From assembly GCF_000739615.1 (NCBI RefSeq), contig NZ_BATP01000039.1:1-64000 (forward strand): a stretch of DNA of 64,000 nt, written 5' to 3'. A program made the translations under genes and the position numbers. This DNA comes from Haloferula sp. BvORR071. Its GTDB lineage: Bacteria; Verrucomicrobiota; Verrucomicrobiia; Verrucomicrobiales; Akkermansiaceae. Within the stretch, counting starts at the first letter, position 1, and each line of letters begins with the position of its first letter. Below, one piece after another: positions 22,001 to 29,938 of the stretch. The notes under the pieces were generated by a model. The model was given only the letters and a program-made list of their open reading frames with translations, was not told where the DNA came from and did not search any database.

Positions 22001-22228
22001 GTGATTCAGGAGGGCGACGTGGTAACGGCAGAGGTCATGCGCCTCGAATCGTACGGCGCCTACTTCGACCACGAAGGTATCTCAATCCTGGTGCTGGGGC
22101 CGGACGCTTCTCCGGGTGGTGATATTTTGGTGGAGGATCTCTTTAAAGTTGGCCAGCAGGCGAGGGTTCGGGTCGGTCACTTTGTTGAGAGCGATCAGCG
22201 ATTTCGTGGCTACATCCACGCGGAGTAG
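22001..22228 (+). CDS. Small S1-domain RNA-binding protein
   Basis: The frame is open from TTG 21974; GTG 22001 begins exactly at the domain and is preferred (75 residues). The whole product is one S1/OB fold: EGDVVTAEVMRLESYGAYFDHEG, a 'VEDLFKVGQQARVRVGHFVE' centre and a C-terminal RFRGYIHAE strand. S1 domains bind single-stranded RNA and occur in ribosomal protein S1, RNase and IF1-type proteins. The stand-alone form is probably a small RNA chaperone or translation-related factor. It lies 103 bp before mutS on the same strand; no functional link is evident. Confidence 0.65.
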   Translation: MIQEGDVVTAEVMRLESYGAYFDHEGISILVLGPDASPGGDILVEDLFKVGQQARVRVGHFVESDQRFRGYIHAE

Positions 22229-22331
22229 GGATTGGATTCGGAAAGACCGGGCGCGGGTTGCCGCTTTCAGCGCAAAGGAGGCAGGTCTTCCCCTTGCCTC
22301 CGGGCGCGGGGCTCCCCAAACTCCCGGGCAG

Positions 22332-24809
22332 ATGTCCGCACCGACGCTCACCCCGATGATGGCGCAGTATCAATCGATGCGCCGCTCGCTGCCTGACGAC
22401 GTGCTGCTGCTCTACCGGCTGGGCGACTTCTACGAGATGTTTTTTGAGGACGCGAAGACCGCCGCGCCGATCCTCAATGTCGCCCTGACCAAGCGCAACC
22501 TGATCCCGATGTGCGGGGTGCCCTACCACGCCGCGGACAACTACATCGCGCGCCTGGTGAAGGCCGGCAAGCGGGTTGCGATCGCCGAGCAAACCAGCGA
22601 GCCGAAGCCGGGGAAAATCGTGGAGCGTGAGATTGCACGGATCATCTCCGCCGGCTCGATCGTGGAGACCCATCTGCTGGATGACCAGCGGCCGAACTAC
22701 CTCGCCGCGGTGTTCCATCTCGGAAAGGTGAGGGGGCTTGCCTGCGTCGATCATTCCACCGGTGAGTTCACGGTCGCCGAGTTTGCCGACCAAGGCTTGC
22801 TCGATGATGAACTGGCACGCCTGACGCCTTCGGAGCTCCTCATTTCCGATGAGCAGATCGCGCTCTTCGGCGCGCTTGGCGCATCCCAGCCCTACGATGG
22901 CTACGCCTTCCTGCCGGATCCCGCACGGCAGATGCTGTGTGAGCACTTCGGGGTTCACTCGCTGGATGGCTATGGCTGCGGGGATGCCCACGCCGCGGTG
23001 GCTGCGGCCGGTGCGATCCTGCACTATCTGGTTCACCAGCTTCGCCGGCCCTGCGATCACCTGCGCTCGCTGCGGGTGCGTGAGAATGCCCGGCACGTGC
23101 TGATCGATGCCGCCTCGCAGCGCAACCTCGACCTGATCGACTCGCGCTCTGGCAAGAAGCATACCCTTCTCGGCGCGCTCGACCGCACCAAGACCCCGAT
23201 GGGCGCGCGCCTGCTGCGCGACTGGATCCTCCATCCGCTGCGTGATCGCGAGACTCTGGACAAGCGCCACGACTTCATCGCCGCGCTGCTGGCAGAGCCC
23301 TTCATTCTCTCGAAGTGCCGCGAGTCGCTGCAGGGCATCCGTGATATCGAACGCACGGTCGGCCGCCTGTCGCAGAGCGCGGGGAATGCGCGTGACCTGC
23401 AATCGCTTGCCTTCTCGCTGGGCCAAATCCCGGAATTGCTGGATGACTTGGCCTCGCTGTCCGCGCCGCCTTCCTCGCTGCCGCAGCCGCAGACCTTTCC
23501 TGAACTCGTCATTCACCTGAAGAACTCGCTCGTCGATGAACCACCCGCGATCCTCCGCGACGGTGGGATGATCCGCGACGGCCACTCGACCGAACTCGAC
23601 GAGCTGCGTTCACTCTCACGCGATGGCAAGTCGTGGATCGCCAAGCTCCAGGAAGACGAGCGCAAGCGTACCGGCATCGAGTCGCTGAAGGTGAAGTTCA
23701 ACAACGTCTTCGGTTACTTCATCGAGATCACTTCCTCGAAGCTGGCCAAAGTGCCGGACGACTACACGCGCAAGCAGACGATGGCGAACTGCGAGCGCTA
23801 CATCACCCCGGCGCTGAAAGAGATGGAGAACAAGGTGCTGGGCGCGGAGGAGCGCTCCAAGCAACTGGAGATGGAACTCTTCCTGCAACTCCGCGCGGAA
23901 GTCTGCGCGCACCTCGAGCCTTTGCAGCGCACGGCAGCAGCCATCGCTGAGATCGACGTGCTCTGTGGTCTGGCGGAGACGGCGCAGACGCACGGGCATG
24001 TGCGCCCGCTGCTGGACGATTCTCGTTCGCTCTCGATCGTGGACGGCCGCCACCCCGTGCTGGAGCAGACCCTGGTGGAAGAGAAGTTCGTGCCGAACGA
24101 CAGCACTTTCGATCCGGCCGATAGTCTCCTGCAGATTCTCACCGGGCCGAACATGGCTGGTAAGTCCACCTACATCCGCCAAGTCGCCTTGATCACACTG
24201 ATGGCGCAGGTCGGGGCCTTCGTGCCGGCCGAGAGTGCCGCGGTGGGCATGGTCGACCGCATCTTCTGCCGCGTCGGTGCTTCCGATGACCTCTCGCGCG
24301 GTCAATCCACCTTCATGGTGGAGATGAACGAGACCGCTCTCATCCTGAACCACGCCACCGACAAGTCGCTGGTGATCCTCGATGAGATCGGCCGCGGCAC
24401 CGCGACCTTCGACGGTCTCTCCATCGCCTGGGCCGTGGCCGAGCACCTGCACGATATCATCGGTTGCCGCACCCTCTTCGCCACCCACTACCACGAACTC
24501 ACCGACCTCGCGAACACCCGCCCGGCGGTCGCGAACTTCAACGTGGCGGTCCGGGAGTGGAACGACGAGATCATCTTCCTGCGCAAGATCCTGCCGGGTG
24601 CGGCGGACAAGAGTTACGGGATCCAGGTAGCCCGTCTCGCCGGCCTGCCCAAGCCGATCATCGAGCGGGCAAAGGCGATCCTGTCGCACCTTGAGCTGCA
24701 CTCGACCAAGCCGGATGCGAAGAAGCAGGGCCCGAAGGCGAAAAACACCCGCCAGCCCGCGATGCCCGAGCCGAATCCGCCGCAGATGGACTTGTTCGGC
24801 GAAATGTAG
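22332..24809 (+). CDS. mutS: DNA mismatch repair protein MutS
   Basis: ATG 22332 starts an 825-residue MutS (usual 800-870). The mismatch-reading Phe-x-Glu is at residues 33-35 (GDFYEMFFEDA). Connector, lever and clamp regions follow. The ATPase carries Walker A GPNMAGKSTYIRQ (near 607-619), FMVEMNE (signature), Walker B/D-loop LVILDEIGRGTATFDG and the H-loop FATHYHEL. The C-terminus ends in a short Lys/Pro tail (PPQMDLFGEM), the beta-clamp-interaction type. It recognises mispairs and recruits MutL, which is not in the window. Longer upstream frames are not needed. Confidence 0.98.
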   Translation: MSAPTLTPMMAQYQSMRRSLPDDVLLLYRLGDFYEMFFEDAKTAAPILNVALTKRNLIPMCGVPYHAADNYIARLVKAGKRVAIAEQTSEPKPGKIVEREIARIISAGSIVETHLLDDQRPNYLAAVFHLGKVRGLACVDHSTGEFTVAEFADQGLLDDELARLTPSELLISDEQIALFGALGASQPYDGYAFLPDPARQMLCEHFGVHSLDGYGCGDAHAAVAAAGAILHYLVHQLRRPCDHLRSLRVRENARHVLIDAASQRNLDLIDSRSGKKHTLLGALDRTKTPMGARLLRDWILHPLRDRETLDKRHDFIAALLAEPFILSKCRESLQGIRDIERTVGRLSQSAGNARDLQSLAFSLGQIPELLDDLASLSAPPSSLPQPQTFPELVIHLKNSLVDEPPAILRDGGMIRDGHSTELDELRSLSRDGKSWIAKLQEDERKRTGIESLKVKFNNVFGYFIEITSSKLAKVPDDYTRKQTMANCERYITPALKEMENKVLGAEERSKQLEMELFLQLRAEVCAHLEPLQRTAAAIAEIDVLCGLAETAQTHGHVRPLLDDSRSLSIVDGRHPVLEQTLVEEKFVPNDSTFDPADSLLQILTGPNMAGKSTYIRQVALITLMAQVGAFVPAESAAVGMVDRIFCRVGASDDLSRGQSTFMVEMNETALILNHATDKSLVILDEIGRGTATFDGLSIAWAVAEHLHDIIGCRTLFATHYHELTDLANTRPAVANFNVAVREWNDEIIFLRKILPGAADKSYGIQVARLAGLPKPIIERAKAILSHLELHSTKPDAKKQGPKAKNTRQPAMPEPNPPQMDLFGEM

Positions 24810-24952: not shown

Positions 24953-27900
24953 ATGAATGTATCGGTCGTGATTCCCGCGCATGACGCGGCGGAGACGCTT
25001 TCCCACACCCTCGAATCGCTTCTTGCGCAGACGCATCCTCACTGGGAAGCGATTGTGATCGATGATGGTTCCCGCGATGGCACCTTGGGAATCGCCCGGG
25101 AATTCTCGGTCCGCGACGAGCGGATCCGGGTGATCAGCCAGAGCTGTGCCGGAGTGAGCGCAGCACGGAATGCCGGAATCAGTTTGGCACAGGGCGAGTG
25201 GCTGCTGTTCCTCGATTCCGATGACTGGCTGTCGCCCTCTCACCTCAAGCGCTTGACCGGCGTGCTCGCGGCCGATCCCGGCCTCGATGCTGTGCACTGT
25301 GGGTGGAACCGGGTGCTGCCCGACGGAACGCTGGTGGAGAGGGGCGAAGATCCCTCCCTGCAAGGAGATCTGTTTGGGGTGCTAGCGAGGCGCTGTTGTT
25401 TCGCGATCCACGCCTGCCTGATCCGCCGCACGCTGGTGCAAGAGCTGGGTGCTTTTGACGAGTCGATGCCGACTTGCGAGGACTGGGACTTGTGGCAGCG
25501 GGTGGCCCGCACGGGCGCCCGCTTCGGGTGGATTCCAGATGTCCTGGCCTATTACCGGATGCGTCCCGCCTCCCTGACCACCGATGGAAGGCAATTCCTT
25601 ACCGATGGCCTGAAGGTGATCGAGAGGGGACACGGTTCTGATCCGCGGGTGAACAACACCGCGGCGGGGAATCACGCGGGATCTCCCGTGGGGCAACTCT
25701 CCGCCGTGAAATTCATCTTCGCCACCTGGCCGGCCGCCGTGGTGCTCGGCCACGGAAACGATGCGCGGCCTCTGCTGGAAATGCTGGGTGACGCGATCGA
25801 TCCCACGCTTGATCCGGCATTGGTGGCGGCCTGCATTTTCGAAGCGGCGCTGCTGCCCAGGGCTCTGGCTGCATCCGCATGGCCAGAGCTGTGGGCTGAA
25901 CTGGAAGGGAACGTGCTCAGCTATCTCTCCGCCTTGGAAGTAAGGGCGAAGGTTCCTCTGCTCGCGAGCCGGGCGCGCCGGATCTTGGAGCGCATGATCG
26001 TAGAGCAGCCGGGTTCACCCCGTCCCCTCACCATCGGCCTGACCCACGCCTCCGAAATCGAGGTCACCGGCCCGCTGCACGGCCTCACGCCACCTCGAGG
26101 GGTGGAGCGGGTGCGCTGCGACGTGCTCATGGAGGGGGTGCGCATTGGGCGGGTCTGGCTTCCGGTTTGTGATGGAGTGGTGACGCCACAGGTTGTCGCC
26201 GATGCCATCGCCGCCGAATATGCATGGCCGGTTCTCGGGAAGTTCCTTGAGAAGACCGTGTATCAGGATCTCCGCGCCGAAGAGACGGAAGCTGGGATGT
26301 CGATATTCCGCGGCGAGCTTTGTCTCGCGGATGGACTGCCAGCGGGCGCGGCTTGGTCGCTATGCCACGACACCATCGGCTGGACGGTTTTCCTTCAGGA
26401 GCTGTGGGGCTGTCCGGAGCTGCCCGCGGAAGCTTTCTATGAAACCGGGGAAGCCATGGGTCTTGAGGGGATTGCTCCAGCCGGGCGACGGATGATCGAG
26501 GTGAGTCGGGGATTGCGCGACCTCGTGGCCGCTGGCGATGCCGTGGAGCTTGTGCTCACCGCAGGAGGGCAGGTGGTCGGCACTGTGAATACGCCCAGCC
26601 TGCTCTCTGCCACGGAGTTGCGAGCCCACCTGACAATAGCAGGCGGATTTGAACTCTGCCGCGTGGCGGTTCGGGAAGGACTGCTAGGCAGGCCGATGGA
26701 TCAATCGGCATCCCTGCGCGCGAGGCTGGCGGCGAGCTGCGATGATCTTGCCGAGGAGCCTGAAAGAGTAGGTATGACCTTGGGCCGTCAACCGTCCGGA
26801 ATCACGGGCACCAGTGCTTCCCGGCACGCGCGCTTGCCGGTAGAGGCGTTTCAGGAGTTGCTCGAGATGGCGCAGGCAATCGGGCAGCCGGTGCTCAGTC
26901 CAGTAGACTTGGAGGAGGCGCCGCGTGAGATCGTCTACGCGCCGGATCATCTTGCATGGCCCTTGCCGACCTCGCCTCCCCGCCTCTCGGCAAAGGCGTC
27001 CCGCGAGGTCTCCAGTGGTAGCAGCAGCACCGGGCATGACGGGCATCATTTCGAATCCCTTTTCGCTTCAGGAGAGGATCCCTGGGGATACACGAATTCC
27101 TACGAGGAGAAGAAATACGCCGAGACTCTTTCCCTCCTTCCGGATCAGCCGATCGGAGAGGCGCTGGAACTCGCGTGCGCGGAAGGGCATTTCACCGAGC
27201 GACTTGCCGGTCATGTTGACACTCTGGTCGCCGCCGACATTTCCCGGATTGCCCTGACTCGGGCAGCCGAACGCTGCGTCAGCCTTGGGAATGTGCGCTT
27301 CGAGCATTGCGATCTTACCAAGGATCCGATCCTCGGATCCTACGACCTGATTGTCTGCAGCGAGGTCCTCTACTACGTCGGTGGAGTAGAGGATCTGGAA
27401 TCCGTCGCCGCCAAGATTGCGCAGGCGATCCGTCCGGGCGGGCACTTCCTCTCGGCCCATGCGAATCTCATCGCCGATGAACCCGAGCGGACCGGTTTCG
27501 ACTGGGGACTGCCTTTCGGAGCGAAGCGGATCGGGGAAGCTTTCGAGCGGGTGGAGTTTTTGGATCTGGTGAAGGAGCTGCGGACTCCACTTTACCGGGT
27601 GCAGCTTTTCCGGCGCCGAATGGAAGGGGAGGGGACGCCTGTCCGGGAAGCGGAGATCATTGAAGCCGAGCTCTTGCCAGAGCTTCCGGAGTCGGTGGCC
27701 TCCCACGTCAGTTGGGAGGGCCAAGAGTCCCGCCGCACTCCCAATGCCAGCGCGGTGGTGACGGCGCGGTTGCCCGTCCTGATGTATCACCGTGTGGCCC
27801 CGGAAGGCTTCGCCACCACCTCGCGCTGGCGGGTGACTCCGGAGGCATTTGAGGAGCAACTGCGCTACCTGCGCGGGGCGGGCTTCCACAGCGTGAGCTT

Positions 27901-28459
27901 GGAAGAATGGCGGCTGGCTGCGGAGGCGAGACGCCCCCTGCCGGGCCGGGCCATCCTGCTGACCTTCGATGACGGCTATCGGGACTTCGCCACCCATGCG
28001 TGGCCCCTCTTGAAGCGCTACGGTTTCACCGCGATCGTCTTCCTGGTCGCTGGTCGGATCGGCGGGACCAATGAGTGGGACTCGGCCCTCGGGGAACCCT
28101 TGGAGTTGATGGACTGGGATGAGATCCTGGCCTTGCAAGAAGAGGGCGTGGAATTCGGCTCCCACACCTGCACCCACCCGCCCCTTACCGGGCTCACGCC
28201 GGCAGGTGTCGTGCGCGAGTTGGCGAAGTCGCGGACCATTCTGGAGAGCCGTCTGGGGCATCCCGTCACCGCCTTTGCCTATCCGTATGGGGACAACGAT
28301 CCCGTGGTGCAGCATCTGACGGGGGCCTGCGGTTATCGGTTTGGCCTGACCTGCCGCTCGGAATCGGTGCGGTTCCAGGATTCGCTCTTGGCTCTCCCGA
28401 GGATCGAAATACCCGGAGATCTCGATCTGCCGGGCTTCGTGTCGAAGCTCAGGCTGTGA
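24953..28459 (+). CDS. Trifunctional GT2 glycosyltransferase - NodS-type methyltransferase - NodB-type deacetylase
   Basis: This is a single 1168-residue chain. Residues 1 to ~215 are a GT-A family 2 glycosyltransferase: VSVVIPAHDAAETL, VIDDGSRDGT, SAARNAGI and the metal/nucleotide segment FLDSDDWLS. Residues ~220-690 hold beta-rich sequence without a recognised family. Residues ~697-890 match NodS-like SAM methyltransferases, with DPWGYTNSYEEKKYAETLSLLP and EALELACAEGHFTERLA as the SAM loop. Residues ~939-1168 are a carbohydrate esterase 4 (NodB) deacetylase: VLMYHRV, LTFDDGY (metal Asp near 1004) and SHTCTHPPL (His-x3-His near 1070). These are the NodC-, NodS- and NodB-type activities joined in one protein. 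A role in making an N-modified surface glycan or glycolipid is inferred. It overlaps convergent bioA by 11 bp. Confidence 0.9.
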   Translation: MNVSVVIPAHDAAETLSHTLESLLAQTHPHWEAIVIDDGSRDGTLGIAREFSVRDERIRVISQSCAGVSAARNAGISLAQGEWLLFLDSDDWLSPSHLKRLTGVLAADPGLDAVHCGWNRVLPDGTLVERGEDPSLQGDLFGVLARRCCFAIHACLIRRTLVQELGAFDESMPTCEDWDLWQRVARTGARFGWIPDVLAYYRMRPASLTTDGRQFLTDGLKVIERGHGSDPRVNNTAAGNHAGSPVGQLSAVKFIFATWPAAVVLGHGNDARPLLEMLGDAIDPTLDPALVAACIFEAALLPRALAASAWPELWAELEGNVLSYLSALEVRAKVPLLASRARRILERMIVEQPGSPRPLTIGLTHASEIEVTGPLHGLTPPRGVERVRCDVLMEGVRIGRVWLPVCDGVVTPQVVADAIAAEYAWPVLGKFLEKTVYQDLRAEETEAGMSIFRGELCLADGLPAGAAWSLCHDTIGWTVFLQELWGCPELPAEAFYETGEAMGLEGIAPAGRRMIEVSRGLRDLVAAGDAVELVLTAGGQVVGTVNTPSLLSATELRAHLTIAGGFELCRVAVREGLLGRPMDQSASLRARLAASCDDLAEEPERVGMTLGRQPSGITGTSASRHARLPVEAFQELLEMAQAIGQPVLSPVDLEEAPREIVYAPDHLAWPLPTSPPRLSAKASREVSSGSSSTGHDGHHFESLFASGEDPWGYTNSYEEKKYAETLSLLPDQPIGEALELACAEGHFTERLAGHVDTLVAADISRIALTRAAERCVSLGNVRFEHCDLTKDPILGSYDLIVCSEVLYYVGGVEDLESVAAKIAQAIRPGGHFLSAHANLIADEPERTGFDWGLPFGAKRIGEAFERVEFLDLVKELRTPLYRVQLFRRRMEGEGTPVREAEIIEAELLPELPESVASHVSWEGQESRRTPNASAVVTARLPVLMYHRVAPEGFATTSRWRVTPEAFEEQLRYLRGAGFHSVSLEEWRLAAEARRPLPGRAILLTFDDGYRDFATHAWPLLKRYGFTAIVFLVAGRIGGTNEWDSALGEPLELMDWDEILALQEEGVEFGSHTCTHPPLTGLTPAGVVRELAKSRTILESRLGHPVTAFAYPYGDNDPVVQHLTGACGYRFGLTCRSESVRFQDSLLALPRIEIPGDLDLPGFVSKLRL

Positions 28460-29711
28460 CTCGCGCGAGTGCCTCCCCAATCGCGCTGACGGCCATGCGG
28501 ATCTCCTCCTCCGTGGTGCACAGTGGTAGCATCAGCACCACAGTGTCGCGGATCGGTCGCGTCAGCAGGCCATGCTCACGCATCGCCAGGCAGGCCTTGG
28601 TGCCCAGGCCCTCCGCCAACTCGATCCCGGCGACGAAGCCACACTGGCGCACGGCCTTCACCGCGGGATGCTTCAAGTCTCCCAGCAGCTCCGCCAGCAG
28701 CGAGATCTTCGGCTCCAGCTTCTCCAGGGTTCGCTCTGTCTCGAAAACCTCCAGACTCGCCAGTGCCACGGCGCATCCAAGTGGATTCGCCGTGTAACTA
28801 TGCCCGTAGTAGAAGGCGTTCTCCGCGGGTCCTAGAAAGGCATCATATACCTCTCCCGTGGTCAGCGTCGCTGCCATCGGCATGTAGCCGCCGGTGAGTC
28901 CCTTCGCCACACACAAGAAATCGGGGATCACCTCCTCGTGATGGCAGGCGAACATCTTCCCGGTTCTTCCAAAGCCGGTCATCACCTCATCCAGGATCAG
29001 GTGGACCTCATGGGCATCGCACCATGCGCGCAGCTCGCACAGCATGCCCTTTGGCCATGGGCGCATCTCATTCACGCCTTGGATCAGCGGCTCGATCACC
29101 ACTGCGCAACTCTGCCGGATCGCCTCGCTTGGCAGATGTCGCAAGGCCTCTATCCCGGTCACGAAAGTCACCGGCGTGCCGTGCTTGCGGAAGCGCTCAT
29201 GGAAACGCGCGACACCACCCAGTGAGGCCGCGCCCATGGTGTCGCCATGGTAGGCCTGCTCGAAGGCGATGAAGCCGATGCGCTCGGGCTCGCCGGTCTG
29301 CTGGCGATACTGGATCGCCATCTTCATCGCGCACTCGATCGCGGTGGAGCCGTCGTCTGAGAAGAACACCCGCTCCAGCGTGCCACCGGGGAAGAGCCCG
29401 CAGAGCCGCTCCGCCAGCTCGCTGGCCAGCGGGTTCGCGAAGCCCAGATAGGAGGTGTGGGCCACCGCCGCGAGCTGGCGGGTGATCGCCGCGTCCAGCG
29501 CCGGCTGGTGGTGGCCGTGGATGTTCGTCCAGATCGAGGAATTCCCGTCGAGATACTTCCGGCCTTCCGAGTCCCATAGCCAAGCGCCTTCACCGCGGGT
29601 TAAAACCAGCGGATCTCCTTGCTCCCAAATGCCTTGTGGGGTGAAGGGGTGCCAGCAGTGCTTCTTGTCCGCTTCGATCCAGCGTCGCGTGTCCTCGCGC
29701 ATCGCCGCCAT
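28449..29711 (-). CDS. bioA: Adenosylmethionine-8-amino-7-oxononanoate aminotransferase
   Basis: ATG 29711 (MAAMREDTRRWIE) starts a 420-residue class III PLP aminotransferase of the usual BioA length; longer upstream frames add unrelated sequence. Diagnostic BioA features are WHPFTPQ near the N-terminus, NSSIWTNIHGHHQP, FSDDGSTAIECAMKMA, the YHGDTMGAASLGG block, ILDEVMTGFGRTG and the Schiff-base Lys in CVAKGLTGGYMP. It converts KAPA to DAPA in biotin synthesis, using SAM as amino donor. No other bio genes are adjacent. Its 3' end overlaps the convergent trifunctional gene by 11 bp. Confidence 0.95.
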   Translation of the reverse strand: MAAMREDTRRWIEADKKHCWHPFTPQGIWEQGDPLVLTRGEGAWLWDSEGRKYLDGNSSIWTNIHGHHQPALDAAITRQLAAVAHTSYLGFANPLASELAERLCGLFPGGTLERVFFSDDGSTAIECAMKMAIQYRQQTGEPERIGFIAFEQAYHGDTMGAASLGGVARFHERFRKHGTPVTFVTGIEALRHLPSEAIRQSCAVVIEPLIQGVNEMRPWPKGMLCELRAWCDAHEVHLILDEVMTGFGRTGKMFACHHEEVIPDFLCVAKGLTGGYMPMAATLTTGEVYDAFLGPAENAFYYGHSYTANPLGCAVALASLEVFETERTLEKLEPKISLLAELLGDLKHPAVKAVRQCGFVAGIELAEGLGTKACLAMREHGLLTRPIRDTVVLMLPLCTTEEEIRMAVSAIGEALARVTA

Positions 29712-29938
29712 CCTCGGCCACCCGCGCGGTCCTGAAAACGGCGAAATCACCAATCCGAGGGCCCCTACGCGATCAGGGAATACGCGGGGCCGAAAATTCA
29801 TGTCAGCCTGTGCTCGTTCCTCAGGGAACCACACTGACGAAACGATCTCCCTCTCTGCGGGCGGTCGGCACCACTGGGGAAGGCGACCCCCGGTGAACAT
29901 GCCGGCCGCCCGCTGCGTTTTCAGCCGTTTGGCTCAGG

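Follow-up and report, generated by a model that had tools for sequence, protein, structure and literature searches.

The window analysed here, 64,000 nucleotides of a Haloferula sp. BvORR071 contig (NZ_BATP01000039.1), contains an uninterrupted open reading frame (ORF; 24953-28459, + strand) for a protein of 1168 amino acids (aa) in which a GT2 glycosyltransferase, a NodS-like S-adenosylmethionine (SAM) methyltransferase and a CE4 deacetylase are joined. Pfam returns the three in that order (Glycos_transf_2 at residues 4-131, 4.4e-33; NodS at 708-837, 2.3e-20; Polysacc_deac_1 at 995-1130, 5.5e-27), which bears out an earlier sequence-only reading of one polypeptide with these activities. The three-domain architecture is already known: NCBI names relatives trifunctional glycosyltransferase/class I SAM-dependent methyltransferase/polysaccharide deacetylase, and the novelty that the earlier reading implied for the fusion falls away. 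The novelty lies instead in a domain of about 75 residues, repeated in the middle of the protein and given the name REP in the present work, which has no sequence match in Pfam or the PDB.

Table 1. Features of the trifunctional gene and its upstream neighbour, in window coordinates.
Feature	Position	Strand	Evidence
Trifunctional GT2 / NodS-like methyltransferase / CE4 deacetylase gene	24953..28459	+	1168 aa; Pfam, co-linear relatives
GT2 glycosyltransferase domain, residues 1-215	24953..25597	+	PF00535 4.4e-33; Foldseek; conservation
Helical extension of GT2, residues 216-352	25598..26008	+	AlphaFold2 model; proteins with GT2 and middle region alone
REP copy 1 (beta-beta-beta-alpha), residues 363-447	26039..26293	+	Internal repeat by hhalign (94%, E 1e-7); hidden Markov model (HMM); structure models
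REP copy 2, residues 511-589	26483..26719	+	Internal repeat by hhalign; HMM; structure models
NodS-like SAM methyltransferase, residues 695-890	27035..27622	+	PF05401 2.3e-20; NCBIfam NodS 5.9e-24; PDB NodS 3ofj 3.3e-16; tree
CE4 deacetylase nearest PgaB and PplD, residues 935-1168	27755..28456	+	PF01522 5.5e-27; NCBIfam, Foldseek, PDB
mutS	22116..24809	+	Upstream neighbour; Pfam MutS domains

Catalytic domains and the middle region

Guanine-plus-cytosine content in four domain segments of the gene is 0.602-0.654 (window, 0.627), and no 19-residue Kyte-Doolittle window of the protein reaches the hydrophobicity of a membrane helix, the highest mean being 1.79. Both aspartates of a D-S-D motif in the GT2 domain, D88 and D90, are kept in all 32 aligned sequences, and Foldseek matches the domain with WrtF and K4CP. 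NCBIfam scores it at 97.3 bits for EpsD vs 25.6 bits for NodC, neither family reaching its cut-off (550 bits for the NodC model, TIGR04242). The earlier label of a NodC-type domain gives way, EpsD being the better match and membrane segments being absent.

Residues 215-690 reach the cut-off of no Pfam family (best E 0.21) and match no PDB sequence up to E 10. An AlphaFold2 model from 32 rows (mean pLDDT 87.2, pTM 0.78) gives residues 216-352 as mostly helical, and the profile searches and structure prediction that the earlier reading had proposed for this region yield a helical extension and two REP copies; no known fourth enzyme is recognised there. The GT2 domain and middle region occur alone, without methyltransferase and deacetylase, at three loci (L040:12690-14426, L073 and L107), and two further loci (L042 and L078) lack the methyltransferase; the middle therefore goes with the GT2 domain, and the methyltransferase is optional.

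The methyltransferase is the domain for which the earlier Nod-type label stands. NCBIfam gives NodS 84.8 bits and the runner-up family 30.5, the former below the 300-bit cut-off of the NodS model (NF041650), and the PDB sequence search returns NodS itself (3ofj, 3.3e-16). In a tree of 43 methyltransferases a starred branch (97/91) sets four NodS sequences and 32 rows from fused proteins apart from seven others, so that the domain groups with NodS as had been supposed; the fused rows form one side of a further branch (94/65, not starred). The tree has few rows, 24 of 67 having been dropped by eye as near relatives from their locus titles and the orthologue L002 having entered twice, and the branch to NodS is long (2.66), as are those of four of the seven others. 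A constraint grouping the methyltransferases of the window and the same genus with NodS, apart from the rest, is not rejected (p-AU 0.123), and the tree therefore does not decide where NodS itself came from. NodS-like methyltransferases are also found outside nod loci. Five such plasmid loci were opened, picked by the authors among 60 listed of 218 records with a methyltransferase match, and in all four that are annotated (Deinococcus, Komagataeibacter, Rubrobacter and Legionella lytica) an N-deacetylase, of PIG-L type three times and a polysaccharide deacetylase once, and a glycosyltransferase lie near the methyltransferase; the fifth, unannotated, is outside this count. Within so small a sample, glycosyltransferase, deacetylase and NodS-like methyltransferase thus form a recurring set, of which the window protein is a fused form.

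The site residues of the CE4 domain are H946, D1006, D1007, H1071 and H1075. In the 32-row alignment D1006 is kept in 32 sequences, H1071 and H1075 in 31, and D1007 and H946 in 30. NCBIfam scores PgaB at 104.7 bits vs 16.5 for NodB, both below the cut-offs of their models (321.9 bits for whole PgaB, TIGR03938; 240 for NodB, TIGR04243), and the NodB-type label is replaced by a PgaB-like one. PDB sequence matches are the Streptococcus deacetylase PplD (6dq3), a 264-residue polysaccharide deacetylase (4wcj) and PgaB (3vus), and the domain is co-linear with all three, with an MYH/WH stretch ahead of TFDD. The PgaB subfamily of CE4 has been described as circularly permuted (PMC5855634). The histidine before TFDD is probably the catalytic acid.

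REP domains and companion glycosyltransferases

Profile comparison (94%, E 1e-7) identifies residues ~363-447 and ~511-589 as two copies of one domain. Among 29 REP sequences scanned there was no Pfam match better than E 0.034, the weak matches falling to seven families with one member each, and the best PDB sequence match had E 0.84. An HMM built from the fused copies and then iterated, which gave 0 matches in shuffled and 0 in reversed ORFs, also matches other ORFs of the fused-gene loci. In ten such companion proteins Pfam sees glycosyltransferase families only, mainly GT2, and leaves the REP part unmatched; REP is present at E < 1e-3 in eight of them, weak in L034:8337-9671 (0.007) and not matched in L034:9668-10963. 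In companion glycosyltransferases REP stands N-terminal to GT2 domains. Two short ORFs of Brocadia (L036:450-1019 and L036:1-498) contain two REP copies apiece and are possibly a free-standing REP scaffold; outside the fused gene, the whole contig has five REP matches, which fall into two open frames.

The window genome has four REP matches (E 0.001), two in the fused protein and two in a tandem glycosyltransferase on another contig (C64); this REP-GT2-REP-GT2 protein, the only other REP carrier found, is encoded beside a GT2 glycosyltransferase, Wzm and Wzt. A model made from the fused copies alone matches this protein twice (iE 5.1e-8 and 2.6e-6, among 6 proteins). REP carriers number eight among 57 relatives and three among 288 genomes of the phylum, every one of the same genus. 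The C64-type arrangement recurs in the same-genus genome G007 (ORF listing), and in 8/8 same-genus REP genomes 2.6-2.7 kilobases (kb) separate a Wzt_C match from the closest REP match not belonging to the fusion; the tandem-GT2 identity of that ORF was checked for G000, G007 and G001. Because of the shared REP domain, the orphan fused gene may be tied to the C64 locus. In Coleofasciculus (L039) the genes run epimerase, GT2, REP-GT2-REP-GT2, Wzm, Wzt and trifunctional gene.

Spread and neighbourhoods of the fusion

Of 72,556 plasmid records searched by tblastn, one matches at least 80% of the query; it comes from Gloeothece verrucosa PCC 7822, whose NCBI-named trifunctional enzyme (WP_013334356.1) covers query residues 1-1168 (100%) at 44.5% identity; the same name is carried by records of Sulfitobacter and Rhizobium leguminosarum. 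Among the best 80 of 548 relatives on genome contigs, which are best-scoring rows and not a random sample, 47 have the three domains in a single ORF, and in these the middle is long in 8 and short in 39. With six plasmid loci, the search for the same domain order that the earlier reading had suggested gives at least 53 fused loci; they include rhizobia, contrary to its view that rhizobia have these activities as separate enzymes. The short form of Rhizobium, Sinorhizobium, Mesorhizobium and Bradyrhizobium is mostly ~950-1020 aa long, and REP is matched in L045, one genome locus out of the 39 with this form, as well as in the plasmid locus L030. Closer to the window the gene is patchy: full-length matches occur in 2/57 relatives and 2/286 genomes of the class, the remaining matches there covering single domains. 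The copy in G007 is co-linear (1159 aa, 61% identity along the protein), and co-linear single ORFs are also found in Gloeothece, Nostoc, Coleofasciculus, planctomycetes and many rhizobia.

By title or classification, fusion-bearing contigs belong to Cyanobacteriota, Planctomycetota, Bacteroidota, Gemmatimonadota, Acidobacteriota and other groups. In a tree of whole proteins, made from 34 rows by a quick method, the window pair falls within a 14-row set of seven named phyla (SH-aLRT 99), Coleofasciculus and Nostoc being closest by path outside the genus. Such phylum-crossing spread suggests horizontal transfer, although a change of phylum label does not prove it. At L041:9719-12800 the related sequence is spread over several ORFs (GT2-middle, REP and one more), which could be real splitting or metagenome-assembly errors. 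Among the titles returned by searches of the open-access literature, none concerns this protein.

Many relatives lie among glycosyltransferases and an ATP-binding cassette (ABC) exporter, which makes the earlier description of the enzyme as self-contained doubtful. In a blastp comparison that used a few query proteins, on contigs some of which are short, the 53 loci have within 9 kb an MsbA-like exporter in 25, a Wzt-like exporter in 7 (both types in one locus) and neither in 22; these 22 speak for self-containment in part. Loci of Rhizobium, Sinorhizobium and Bradyrhizobium have the MsbA-like type nearby. Seventeen of the 22 are the Mesorhizobium loci (e.g. L029, L049 and L055), of which 17/17 have no exporter like the queries within 9 kb and no partner glycosyltransferase like that of the Rhizobium operon near the fused gene. 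Upstream of the fused or a related gene at L036, L040, L041 and L042 are ORFs of ~350 residues with similar N-termini, and the one at L040:7936-8988 matches Pfam radical SAM and SPASM families.

In the window the fused gene follows mutS, which has no part in the function of the fused enzyme, and converges on a class-III aminotransferase gene (28449-29900, - strand) with which it shares its final 11 bases. The ORF upstream of the G007 copy (L114) has the N-terminal sequence of the window mutS (ORF listing), and between the two lies a 218-residue ORF whose match to a family of outer-membrane barrels is weak (23.6 bits, below cut-off). No further glycan genes adjoining the fused gene were recognised in the window and L114 listings, in which some neighbours only were scanned.

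Proposed function and known systems

That the protein serves to make an N-modified amino-sugar glycan is probable; the sequence-only reading had suggested such a glycan or a lipid. In its fuller form, to which we give roughly even chances of being right, the proposal is of a cytoplasmic glycan-assembly enzyme working ahead of export. The GT2 domain with its helical extension would attach an N-acetylated sugar to a glycan assembled at the cytoplasmic side, the PgaB-like domain would then take off the acetyl group, and the NodS-like domain would methylate the freed amine, so that the product would be an N-methylated rather than an O-methylated amino sugar, to be carried out afterwards by an ABC exporter. 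The suggested order of the last two enzymatic steps is an analogy from Nod-factor genetics, in which, for Rhizobium sp. IRBG74, N-methylation by NodS comes after deacetylation (PMC5080398). The two REP domains may hold the enzyme to REP-bearing partner glycosyltransferases or to a shared glycan; in the window genome the partners would most likely be the REP-GT2-REP-GT2 protein and Wzm/Wzt of C64. In favour of the proposal stand the three domains with their conserved catalytic-site residues, the absence of membrane segments, the deacetylase and glycosyltransferase near NodS-like methyltransferases at the four annotated plasmid loci, and the sharing of REP with glycosyltransferases close to Wzt. 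A bolder version is doubtful: in it REP, not described before, would serve for docking or for gripping the glycan and would mark the members of one assembly line, the trifunctional enzyme and tandem REP-glycosyltransferases encoded far apart (on C28 and C64 here) would form one complex, and an N-methylated amino-sugar cap would be read by the ABC exporter.

Several observations weigh against the proposal. The fused gene and its proposed partners are on separate contigs, with no linkage in the assembly, and six same-genus genomes have the REP/Wzt locus but lack the trifunctional gene; the locus can therefore do without it. A search of the genomes behind 13 loci gave 31 REP matches, 17 inside the fused (or methyltransferase-less) gene and 14 outside it (13 on the same contig, in five genomes, and one weak match, 9.7e-4, on another). 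These matches outside the gene speak for the proposal, but the genome-wide count favours such copies because the model includes companions from the same loci, and three of the 13 genomes have no REP match at all. Proteins of Scalindua (L042) and Novosphingobium (L078) have GT2 and CE4 domains and no methyltransferase. Two of the 32 aligned relatives, L038:9989-13459 (changed at H946, D1007 and H1075) and L043:9974-12724 (changed at H946, D1007 and H1071), keep GT2 and methyltransferase domains beside a CE4 site altered at metal or acid positions, which does not fit a strict order of deacetylation before methylation.

Alternatively, the enzyme may be a chain-terminating cap synthase that places one N-methylated amino sugar at the non-reducing end of a Wzm/Wzt polysaccharide, stopping growth and signalling to Wzt for export. 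In 6/13 carrier genomes Wzt_C is no more than 12 kb away from the fused (or methyltransferase-less) gene, which it directly adjoins in L039, and WbdD, a kinase-methyltransferase described as regulating O9a chain length, offers a precedent (PMC3482155). We nevertheless hold this unlikely given the preponderance of MsbA-like over Wzt-like exporters (25 vs 7 of 53 loci), the 17 Mesorhizobium loci with neither and the six same-genus Wzt loci without the fusion. Similarly improbable is an acquired orphan of partial function, whose glycan locus was lost or replaced and which now modifies another glycan or does little. Its patchy spread and the lack of a recognised glycan gene alongside are consistent with this; the checked catalytic-site residues are nevertheless kept, the two species share 61% identity along the protein, and the window genome retains another REP protein. 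A Nod-factor-like chitooligosaccharide pathway in a single chain would account for the affinity of the methyltransferase to NodS by NCBIfam, tree and PDB, but it is very hard to reconcile with the NodB and NodC scores, far short of their cut-offs, and with a protein free of membrane segments. An assembly join or a frameshift uniting separate genes is ruled out for all practical purposes, because two species have the same co-linear protein and relatives in independent genomes share it; the fusion is real, as the earlier reading took it to be.

Should the proposal of an N-methylating assembly enzyme be true, it would point to the production of N-methylated amino sugars, familiar from Nod factors, well beyond symbiosis, and REP would be a sequence handle for finding enzymes that work on the same glycan and are encoded at distant genes. 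Among known systems, NodC is a membrane-embedded processive synthase, whereas the GT2 domain of the window protein has no stretch resembling a membrane helix. NodS is the closest curated family and the nearest group in the tree, but it forms a protein of its own and its branch is long. By sequence and by fold the CE4 domain matches PgaB and PplD best; PgaB is located and works in the periplasm, whereas the window domain is fused to a glycosyltransferase and a methyltransferase. WbdD places a methyl phosphate cap, recognised by Wzt, on the E. coli O9a chain. It is likewise a multi-activity methyltransferase, described for an ABC-transporter-dependent polysaccharide pathway (PMC3482155), but its second activity is a kinase, and the likeness drawn here is one of function. 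For PgaB, transport through the periplasm is the setting described (PMC5855634). The rhizobial short form has GT2, NodS-like methyltransferase and CE4 in one chain as here, with a shortened middle. A named counterpart is the Gloeothece enzyme, with the same three domains in the same order and two REP copies; its gene is plasmid-borne and has several glycosyltransferases no more than 12 kb away, whereas that of the window lies beside mutS. As a fusion the window protein is ordinary, and REP is its new part.

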